Assembly: GCF_021533835.1 (NCBI RefSeq)
Contig: NZ_JAKFYQ010000002.1
Span: 434,001-498,000 of the forward strand
DNA length: 64,000 nt
Direction: 5' to 3'
DNA from: Synechococcus sp. Nb3U1
GTDB lineage: Bacteria > Cyanobacteriota > Cyanobacteriia > Thermostichales > Thermostichaceae
Shown: piece by piece, positions 2,246 through 60,878 of the stretch
How positions within the stretch are numbered: position 1 is the stretch's first letter
How the letters are laid out: every line of letters starts with the position of its first letter
Program-made: the position numbers and the translations under genes
Notes under the pieces: generated by a model
What the model was told of the DNA's origin: nothing
Seen by the model: only the letters and a program-made list of their open reading frames with translations
The model's database searches: none

Positions 2246-2346
2246 AGCTTTATCCTAGGCATTTGTTTGATTCTAGCCAGGCCTTTTCTTCCCCCCGCTT
2301 GGCCCACAAAGTCAACAAAATAAACAAAATAAGTCAACAAAATAAA

Positions 2347-2368
2347 AGGTCGAGGCCAGCCCCGACCT
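2347..2368 (-). terminator. Hairpin followed by a T-rich tract on the minus strand
   Basis: AGGTCG (2347-2352) pairs with CGACCT (2363-2368), with two further G-C pairs inside. On the minus strand the hairpin is followed by TTTATTTTGTTGACTT. The shape is that of an intrinsic terminator for leftward transcription. It sits upstream of the DUF4332 gene and behind the divergent aroA, so it would block antisense transcription from aroA or act as a leader attenuator for DUF4332. Confidence 0.4.
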
Positions 2369-2413
2369 AGGAATCCATGTTGTTACTGTTTATCCTCCAC
2401 AACAGCGACGGAT

Positions 2414-2434
2414 CCCGTCAAAAGACAGCCTGTC
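2414..2434. repeat. 21-bp motif, copy 1 (upstream of aroA)
   Basis: These 21 bases are identical to 60858-60878. The right part is a near-palindrome (GACAGCCTGTC). It lies 47 bases before the aroA start, and the second copy lies 44 bases before the dnaG start. Both copies sit in divergent intergenic regions. It could be a shared regulator site or a dispersed repeat. Confidence 0.5.
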
Positions 2435-3852: not shown

Positions 3853-4503
3853 ACCCGACGCTGTAGCTTGCTTCCCGCAGGGTTGCTCTGCATACAGGAT
3901 GGGCTTCTCTAATCAACCGCGACAGCCTCGGAGAGGGTAGACTTACGCCTTGGGTCTTACATCGCGTCCTAGAGCAGCAGCCCCACTTCCTGAGGCCAAA
4001 ATCCGCAAGCCTTCATTTCTGATATTAATCGCTGCGTTGATGTCTGGGTCGTGGCGTTTCTGGCAGTGAGGACTTACAAACGAGCGAACCGAGAGATCCA
4101 TCTTCTCTAGCGGGAGAAAGGTGTTGGAACAAAGGTGAGAAGACGGAAAGAGAAGATTCAGGTTTCTCCATACCGTCCTCTACCAGCAACGATGTAAAGT
4201 ACTTTCCATCTGGCATCTTGGACACAGTGACCGTCTTCAGTTGTCCCTCAATTGGTCTGTGAATTTTGGCTGCAACCGTTCCCAACAAACCAGGAAACTT
4301 AATTGCAGATTCAGAAATCACTTTGACGTTTTGGGGAAACTGGACGGACTGACGATGATGCTTCGACTTGAACCTGGGATACTTTGCCCTGCCCTCAAAG
4401 AAGTTCTGGAACGCTTGAGACAGATTCAACACCGATTGCTGTAAGCATTGCGAATAGCACTCTTTCAACCATTCATGCTCCGCCTTCAGTCTAGGAATCT
4501 ATT
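3853..4503 (-). pseudogene. Degenerate TnpB (IS200/IS605 family) with its RuvC core deleted
   Basis: The N-terminal part reads HEWLKECYSQCLQQ, FQNFFEGRAKYPRFKSK and FPQNVKVISESAIKFPG, a standard TnpB wedge/recognition region, up to about 4190. The catalytic RuvC segment with its acidic residues is missing. A frameshift near 4070 then leads to HDPDINAAINIRNEGL and LALGRD-like tail sequence at 3960-4060. Further down, EKPILYAEQPCGKQAT (3853-3915) matches other TnpB ends in this window. An upstream in-frame stop also breaks the N-terminus. No tnpA is present, so the element is not autonomous and the protein cannot be a nuclease. Confidence 0.8.
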
Positions 4504-50679: not shown

Positions 50680-50851
50680 GATTCTCGCCTCCAAATGTTG
50701 AATTGTGACTGGTAAACATCCTGTGAACGGTCACAAGGGTTGAGGCGCGTTCCTTCGGGATAGCTCCCTACTTCCGTCCTCCGCCGGTGATGTCGCTTCT
50801 CAATCAGCCGCCCAAAACCAGAGAGGATGAACGATTTCTATCTACATTCTG

Positions 50852-59445: not shown

Positions 59446-60036
59446 TTAGGGAGTGGGGTGGCCGTGGCCATGACTGTGCCCATGGGACTCGGATCCGCTT
59501 GTTAACTTCAGCAAAGGAGCGGGCTCGGGCAAATCATGGGGATCCTCACCGGGTTGAGCCACCTGGATCCAGCGAGAGATACCCTTTTCACACTCTTGCA
59601 CCACTGGGATTGGGATCGTCTCACCGGGTCGATCCGGCAATTTCAGGCTAATGCTGAACTCGTCCATAAACTCGTCTGGCAGTACTCCCCCTGACCAAAT
59701 CACTTCGGCGACGGTTTCGGTAATCATCCGCCCATGAGACTCATAGGGGGTTGCGAGGGGTTTTTTCACCGTCTCAATTTCCCAGAGAGGATGCACCATC
59801 GGCTTCACAGAAGTTGCGCCCTCCGGGATCTGCACCCGCAGGCGGATGGTTGGGGATCCCTCACAACCATGCGGAACGCGCAAGGTTAATTTGGCATAGC
59901 TGCCTGCGGGCGCTTCCTTGGGGTTGACCGTGACGTGGGCAGAAGCAGGCGAAAGGGCCAGCAGAGCCGAACCCAACGTTAAGGTGACCTTCGCCCCCCA
60001 AGCACCAAAAGGCAAACTGTTGTGCAACTTCAACAT
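59446..60036 (-). CDS. YcnI-like (DUF1775) periplasmic copper protein
   Basis: About 196 residues from the ATG at 60036. Signal peptide 1-33 ends at ASAHVTVNP, where the mature N-terminal His is the copper ligand of YcnI. Other family features: TLRVPHGCEGSPTIRLRVQIPEGATSVKP, and WEIETVK. The C-terminus is unusually His-rich (ESHGHSHGHGHPTP), an extra metal sink. It is the last gene of an operon after petJ and a His/Met repeat protein, which points to copper handling next to a cytochrome that is normally expressed in copper shortage. Confidence 0.88.
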   Translation of the reverse strand: MLKLHNSLPFGAWGAKVTLTLGSALLALSPASAHVTVNPKEAPAGSYAKLTLRVPHGCEGSPTIRLRVQIPEGATSVKPMVHPLWEIETVKKPLATPYESHGRMITETVAEVIWSGGVLPDEFMDEFSISLKLPDRPGETIPIPVVQECEKGISRWIQVAQPGEDPHDLPEPAPLLKLTSGSESHGHSHGHGHPTP

Positions 60037-60086
60037 ATCAATACCTCTCAAGGGCTGTATTTGGTTCAAATCTTGATTTGCCGGAT

Positions 60087-60446
60087 CTATCTATTCGGGC
60101 TATTCGGGCTGTTCGGGAGCTCGGGGTGATGGTGATGACCGGATCCCTCTGACTCGATCACGCTCATACTGTGCTGACCCCAACTGGACAGGCCCATAGA
60201 CACCAAGCCCGCGCTCACCAAACCCATGGACACCAACCCAAAGGACAAGGCCCCCATAGCTACTAAGCCAATTGAGACAATGCCGTGGGTGACTACTCCA
60301 ATGGCCACCACTCCATGGGCGGAAATGCCAACTGCCACCAAACCATGGGCTCCCACGCCGACCGATAAAATTTTTCTGGAATGACCGCAATCTGGGGCCT
60401 CAGATGGTTTTGGAGAGGAAGTTCCCGGCTGCGCATCCGTCAACAT
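60087..60446 (-). CDS. Protein with a strict 10-residue Gly repeat carrying a His/Met ladder
   Basis: A 119-residue protein of no known family. Residues 30-90 consist of six 10-residue units with Gly at positions 30, 40, 50, 60, 70, 80, 90 and again at 35, 45, 55, 65, 75, 85. The residue just before the mid-unit Gly is H34, H44, H54, then M64, M74, M84; M94 keeps the same spacing. Other positions are small or hydrophobic. The tail has HHHH (104-107) and NSPNSPNR. No signal peptide is clear. Its ATG overlaps the petJ stop (TGATG), so it is co-translated with cytochrome c6, and ycnI follows 50 bases later. Confidence 0.75.
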   Translation of the reverse strand: MLTDAQPGTSSPKPSEAPDCGHSRKILSVGVGAHGLVAVGISAHGVVAIGVVTHGIVSIGLVAMGALSFGLVSMGLVSAGLVSMGLSSWGQHSMSVIESEGSGHHHHPELPNSPNSPNR

Positions 60447-60802
60447 CAGGCTTTACCCCAGTTGCGCTCAGCTTGTTGCAACACATAGGCCGCCACCGAC
60501 TCGATCTCTTCTGGTTTCAGTTGCTTGCCAAAGGCGGGCATGGCTCCTTTCCCCTGAGCCACCTGGTTTTGAATCAACTCCGGGGTATCCACGTGGTATT
60601 CCTGTAAGGCGGCCAAGGTTAGGGTTTTTGCCGCCACCAACGAGTTTCGTCCCCCCAGATGGCAACCGATGCATTTACCCTGGAAAACTTTTGCCCCCAG
60701 ACTCAAATCAGGCTCGGCTGTGGCTGGATGGGCAATCCCCAATCCAAGTAGGCCGACCAGGAGGGCCATTCCCAAGGCTTTGAAAATCCATTCGTTGAAC
60801 AT
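60446..60802 (-). CDS. petJ: Cytochrome c6
   Basis: 118 residues from the ATG at 60802; the frame is open further upstream but without sense. Residues 1-29 are a signal peptide (ALLVGLLGLGIAHPATAE). The heme motif is C44-IGC47-H48, and the axial Met is M88 in GAMPAFG. GGRNSLVAAKTL and ESVAAYVLQQAE are typical of cytochrome c6, which carries electrons from cytochrome b6f to photosystem I in the thylakoid lumen, often replacing plastocyanin when copper is low. First gene of an operon with the His/Met repeat gene and ycnI. Confidence 0.93.
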   Translation of the reverse strand: MFNEWIFKALGMALLVGLLGLGIAHPATAEPDLSLGAKVFQGKCIGCHLGGRNSLVAAKTLTLAALQEYHVDTPELIQNQVAQGKGAMPAFGKQLKPEEIESVAAYVLQQAERNWGKA

Positions 60803-60857: not shown

Positions 60858-60878
60858 CCCGTCAAAAGACAGCCTGTC
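60858..60878. repeat. 21-bp motif, copy 2 (upstream of dnaG)
   Basis: Identical to 2414-2434. It lies between divergent petJ and dnaG, 44 bases before the dnaG start. Its minus strand contains TTGACA at the edge, which could serve as a petJ -35 element, but no -10 was evident. Confidence 0.5.

Follow-up and report, generated by a model that had tools for sequence, protein, structure and literature searches.

The window, the whole 64,000-nucleotide stretch of the Synechococcus sp. Nb3U1 genome analysed here, carries three minus-strand genes in tandem: a petJ-like gene for cytochrome c6, a gene for a repeat protein with regularly spaced His and Met residues (hereafter the ladder protein, and its spaced residues the rungs), and ycnI (Table 1). 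As the preliminary description had stated, the ATG of the ladder gene overlaps the petJ stop codon, by one base (TGATG), and the next gene, after a gap of about 50 bases, is a ycnI of the DUF1775 family with a His-rich tail. Adjacency of ladder gene and ycnI was seen in the window's genus only. The PetJ translation contains the CXXCH motif as CIGCH and, by eye, a hydrophobic secretory leader. It scored 119.8 bits against the NF045930 equivalog, under the 135-bit cut-off; PetJ proteins of Synechocystis-like genomes narrowly fail to reach it as well, that of a close Synechocystis relative (G217) scoring 134.4 bits. YcnI is a full-length, above-cut-off DUF1775 member (163.7 bits, residues 35-179 of the translated stretch). 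Its domain begins at a His following ASA, a position compatible with an N-terminal His ligand of the kind expected in copper-binding YcnI/DUF1775 proteins. A simple promoter scan of the region upstream of the operon found no sigma-70 match. In two other genomes the petJ near the ladder gene seems to be split in two frames (G318:C400:8498-8814 and G373:C5:10012-10337), through either decay or assembly error.

Table 1. Features of the petJ-ladder-ycnI operon and of the second PetR-type site, in window coordinates
Feature	Position	Strand	Remarks
petJ-like cytochrome c6	60446..60802	-	signal sequence, CIGCH haem motif
His/Met ladder gene	60087..60446	-	119 aa; Slr0601 orthologue by gene order; GLTT-type pentapeptide repeats
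Ladder core	60165..60365	-	residues 28-94; rungs H34 H44 H54 M64 M74 M84 M94
HHHH	60126..60137	-	residues 104-107, in His-rich C-terminal tail
ycnI (DUF1775)	59446..60036	-	predicted mature N-terminal His and His-rich tail
PetR-type operator of petJ-ladder-ycnI operon	60861..60878	-	GACAGGCTGTCTTTTGAC; 3' TTGAC as putative -35 element
Second PetR-type box	2417..2434	-	only other exact box of the genome
Candidate PetR-controlled sRNA	2339..2385	-	5' TAACAACATGGATTCCT, terminator hairpin, U-run

Translation confirmed the proposed succession of His at residues 34, 44 and 54 and Met at 64, 74 and 84, with Met 94 in step. The HHHH run said to end the protein is present, but 12 residues still come after it. 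A Gly follows every rung except that at residue 94 and recurs each five residues, giving repeat units of the form xG[VIL][VIL][SA]. The sole above-cut-off Pfam match is the GLTT repeat PF01744 (68.6 bits against a cut-off of 21, E 3e-19), with which the ladder protein has five-residue xGxxx repeats in common. It differs from PF01744 in that literal xGLTT units, and TT altogether, are absent, each second pre-Gly position is His or Met, and the core is strongly hydrophobic and uncharged. A search of solved structures gave no significant match, no relatives were found in viral contigs, and the literature searched had no relevant paper on the GLTT repeat or DUF3721. In marine picocyanobacteria (L068, L071, L079 and other loci), all-Met ladder proteins carry a fused DUF3721 domain (Cx3HxMGxxWMPCxxH). 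The gene next to such a fusion encodes a small DUF3721 protein whose end is rich in His, and some of the loci also encode a porin-like protein in which His and Met are abundant at the N-terminus.

Conservation of the rungs was assessed across the class. The search gave matches in 131 of 390 genomes, weak hits on other repeat proteins being counted among them, and the alignment comprised 73 homologues drawn from 12 or more cyanobacterial families. Rungs 44 (33 His, 40 Met) and 54 (32 His, 41 Met) are His or Met in every aligned homologue, and rungs 64, 74 and 84 are Met in all 73. Rung 94 is Met in 47/73, and rung 34 is variable (28 His, 29 Leu, 7 Thr). At non-rung core columns, His and Met together account for zero to a few percent, and Gly is near-invariant at most repeat positions. 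Control pentapeptide-repeat proteins of the same class have His or Met at 6 of 120 pre-Gly positions. Random placement of His and Met in homologues would have spoken against a metal role; the placement is non-random, with 73/73 at rungs 44 to 84, and the ladder rungs are under strong selection, beyond chance. Since neither His nor Met is a conservative substitute for the other, their exclusive exchange at rungs 44 and 54 fits soft-metal ligands. Homologue tails contain 10% His and 6% Met. Ladders with His rungs form one broad set; the all-Met set comprises marine picocyanobacteria and Synechocystis-like genomes, the ladders of the Synechocystis clade having no His rungs. That the protein is a low-complexity structural repeat devoid of metal function would agree with its Pfam match, GLTT being a short low-complexity repeat, but related repeats of the same class do not place His or Met before Gly, and membership of a regulon is conserved (see below). 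We regard this explanation as improbable.

The ladder core has a GRAVY of 1.56 and zero charged residues between residues 27 and 90, a composition that makes membrane insertion likely. AlphaFold gave no usable model of the ladder protein: its pLDDT was 53.5 with a four-sequence alignment, and with no alignment it returned a single long helix (pTM 0.51). Speculatively, a seven-coil solenoid would line up the rungs. CTR1 exemplifies Met-rich sites of Cu(I) transport, in which repeated Met residues serve as soft Cu(I) ligands within an apolar segment. Repeated Met in an apolar segment is common to such sites and the ladder, which is not homologous to CTR1 and differs in its 10-residue spacing within a Gly repeat.

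The identity of the ladder protein emerges from gene order. In G217, the ladder gene lies 102 bases after a gene for a near-identical Slr0600 (PDB 5jri, E 1e-218) and 15 bases ahead of one for a small Slr0602-like protein with a hydrophobic leader. This adjacency to Slr0600 marks the ladder gene as slr0601 and its neighbour as slr0602, so that, judged by synteny and sequence, the window's ladder gene is orthologous to Synechocystis slr0601. Repeats, Met rungs and a PetR-type operator are also common to the two, as seen in this relative. Slr0601 differs in having no His rungs (Thr, then Met), and it has its own promoter and an slr0602-like partner, where the window ladder is instead placed with petJ and ycnI. 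PetRP, which switches between plastocyanin and cytochrome c6, consists of a BlaI-type regulator and a copper-activated membrane protease (PMC13421787). Besides petE and petJ, slr0601 and slr0602 are the two unexplained members of its regulon (PMC7896320, PMC12382314), and their copper- and PetRP-dependent expression has been shown in Synechocystis (PMC7896320). The genome under study encodes PetR-like (E 8.5e-49) and PetP-like (E 1.4e-83) proteins, and ladder genes adjoin petR-petP and/or petJ in several other genera. The copper link drawn for the operon in the preliminary description is thus well founded, through Slr0600 synteny and an identical operator that place it in the PetRP regulon (PMC7896320, PMC12382314). 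Its suggestion of an undescribed system needs correction in that PetRP regulation was already described and Slr0601 already listed as an uncharacterised regulon member; the routing of copper that it proposed is a possible function.

The shared operator is an 18-bp sequence, GACAGGCTGTCTTTTGAC, which stands without a single difference ahead of both the petJ-ladder-ycnI operon of the window and the slr0601 orthologue. Exact copies occur at two sites in the 3.49 Mb genome, both within the window. A scan of ladder loci separated two classes, one with a box within 5 mismatches of 20 and one with matches no better than shuffled sequence; the box lies mostly about 60-110 bases upstream. Among ladder genomes, it was present in 35/40 with PetP and 2/35 without (box within 5 mismatches, petJ-operon cases included). 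The corresponding Fisher test (p 1.3e-13) ignores kinship and overstates independence, since the PetP-lacking set is mostly one family. Both PetP-lacking genomes that have the box are known from fragmented assemblies, with a completeness of 83% and 91%. In four of the five PetP-bearing exceptions, the box precedes a PepSY_TM gene upstream of the ladder, and most petJ genes tested in PetP-bearing genomes also have the box. Such boxed PepSY_TM genes, possibly encoding a copper reductase, were observed in L038, L039, L042 and L055. From this distribution PetR probably binds the box. Its terminal TTGAC can, to judge by the sequence, be used as a -35 element, and TANNNT is enriched 17-18 bases past the TTGAC (22/45 boxes). 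Upstream of petE in four Synechocystis-like genomes, we recognized by eye a degenerate core, GACN5GTC, without the TTTTGAC extension. The missing extension may explain why PetR activates some targets and represses petE, and the comparison of operators makes the action of one regulator in both directions a directly testable question.

The second exact box of the genome precedes a short intergenic element consisting of box, candidate transcript and intrinsic terminator, the last with a hairpin of about 9 bp followed by a T-run. This element is conserved in 6/6 genomes of the genus. With its spacer left unconstrained, the box pattern has two sites in each of five of these genomes and three in G079; the reversed control pattern has zero in the genus. 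The candidate sRNA matched no Rfam family. The complementarity of its 5' end covers both the Shine-Dalgarno sequence and the start codon of petE in congeners, and in six petE-bearing genomes the complement at the Shine-Dalgarno/AUG region is perfect over 12-17 nt. In G004, G029 and G068, the petE start and the sRNA locus are the only places with the exact 13-mer GAGGAATCCATGT; G057 and G079 have it exactly at petE, with one mismatch in the sRNA copy. Box and seed are kept in a sister genus (G101), with an unrelated terminator stem and the petE site GAGGAATCCATGA. Relative to shuffled seeds, the predicted sRNA-petE duplexes have z scores of -5.6 to -7.8. This complementarity and the box ahead of the element suggest that PetR drives an sRNA directed against petE. 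A search for a PetR box at petE found none in the five petE-bearing congeners covered; in these, direct repression could be replaced by the sRNA. Metal-sparing sRNAs such as RyhB and IsaR1 follow the same scheme, in which a metal-starvation regulator controls a short RNA directed against metal-protein mRNA; they act with iron and Fur where the candidate would act with copper and PetR, and the likeness is one of regulatory logic. If real, the sRNA would add post-transcriptional control to the plastocyanin/cytochrome c6 switch. Plastocyanin itself, present in the five congeners, was not found in the genome of the window, where an assembly gap is possible (best E 3e-4; in congeners about 1e-36). 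That genome has kept petR and petP. One-mismatch seed matches in that genome, the sRNA itself aside, look chance-like. There the sRNA seems to have persisted after the loss of its target.

Boxes of the same type mark further genes in relatives. They precede the ycnI orthologue in another sister genus, G091, DsbD_2-type membrane protein genes in G091 and G101, and genes of the copper-binding MbnP family in G079 and G101 (TIGR04052, above cut-off); MbnP shares this kind of box with the ladder protein and is not homologous to it. Cyanobacterial MbnP-family genes behind PetR-type boxes were noted at L279:1635-2501 and L286:728-1300. The boxed MbnP, YcnI, DsbD_2 and PepSY_TM genes point to copper acquisition in scarcity and not to detoxification. 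In c-type cytochromes haem is coordinated by His and Met, and the rungs might accordingly bind haem or iron, for example to supply haem to the cytochrome c6 encoded in the same operon. We consider this very improbable, given that the ladder lacks a CXXCH motif, that ladders occur without a detected petJ, and that the other boxed genes in relatives are of copper-binding MbnP and YcnI types.

Ladder genes appear not to be confined to genomes with both electron carriers: petJ was not detected in the ladder-bearing genomes G385 and G179, nor petE in G000 (the window's own genome), G163 and G237, making a role tied to either carrier alone unlikely. PetRP was likewise not found in G163 and G237, and the persistence of the ladder in these two suggests that its function is not strictly switch-dependent. 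These absences weigh on the proposal that the ladder is an accessory of the carrier switch, assisting assembly, docking or stability of cytochrome c6, plastocyanin or photosystem I, with Met and His serving in packing. It would account for the translational overlap of ladder and petJ in the window's genus, and for Slr0602, co-regulated with Slr0601, interactions with photosynthetic proteins, plastocyanin among them, have been reported (PMC7896320). Packing leaves unexplained, however, both the His-Met exclusivity at rungs 44 and 54 and the His/Met-rich tails, and we deem an accessory role unlikely, if less so than the other alternatives. Storage or detoxification of copper, in a role like that of CopM or Csp, would suit the His/Met-rich composition and the neighbouring ycnI. 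It fits poorly with an operator shared with petJ, which high copper represses more than any other gene in Synechocystis (PMC4182526), because expression should then peak at low copper; such a role has little probability. Detoxification as the main reading was rejected on this inferred direction of regulation.

We therefore favour, with a probability of roughly 0.6, a low-copper PetR-PetP operon in which the ladder would provide a membrane Cu(I) site for gathering or retaining copper while a PetR-driven sRNA acts against plastocyanin. When copper is scarce, PetP would be inactive and PetR would persist, as in the mechanism known from Synechocystis. PetR would bind GACN5GTC, just upstream of and overlapping the -35 element, and activate petJ-ladder-ycnI. 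The ladder protein of the Slr0601 family would be embedded in the membrane and bind Cu(I) through its column of Met and His rungs and its His/Met-rich tail; copper binding at the periplasmic or luminal face would fall to YcnI. The two proteins may jointly gather or retain scarce copper and hand it over to cuproproteins. The same regulator would switch off the main copper consumer through an sRNA whose pairing would cover the ribosome-binding site and the start codon of the plastocyanin mRNA, a target apparently lost in the window's own genome.

A broader proposal, to which we give somewhat less than even odds, is that PetRP governs a full copper-economy regulon, switched on when copper is low and comprising cytochrome c6, a new class of His-to-Met membrane Cu(I) ladder, YcnI, MbnP and possibly a PepSY_TM reductase, and an sRNA blocking plastocyanin. 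The sRNA component of this tentative scheme would belong to the window's genus and one sister genus, where it would replace direct promoter repression. One of the two unexplained regulon members (PMC7896320) gains a testable function with residues that can be mutated, and the presumed PetRP regulon is widened to copper-binding proteins. If the ladder does bind Cu(I), its metal-site architecture is one that we did not find described in the literature searched.

Two further features of the window were noted on the minus strand: a glutamine riboswitch (RF01739, 53.4 bits) at 50744-50835 and, at 4025-4468, an open reading frame that by eye resembles a fragment of a TnpB-type transposon protein.
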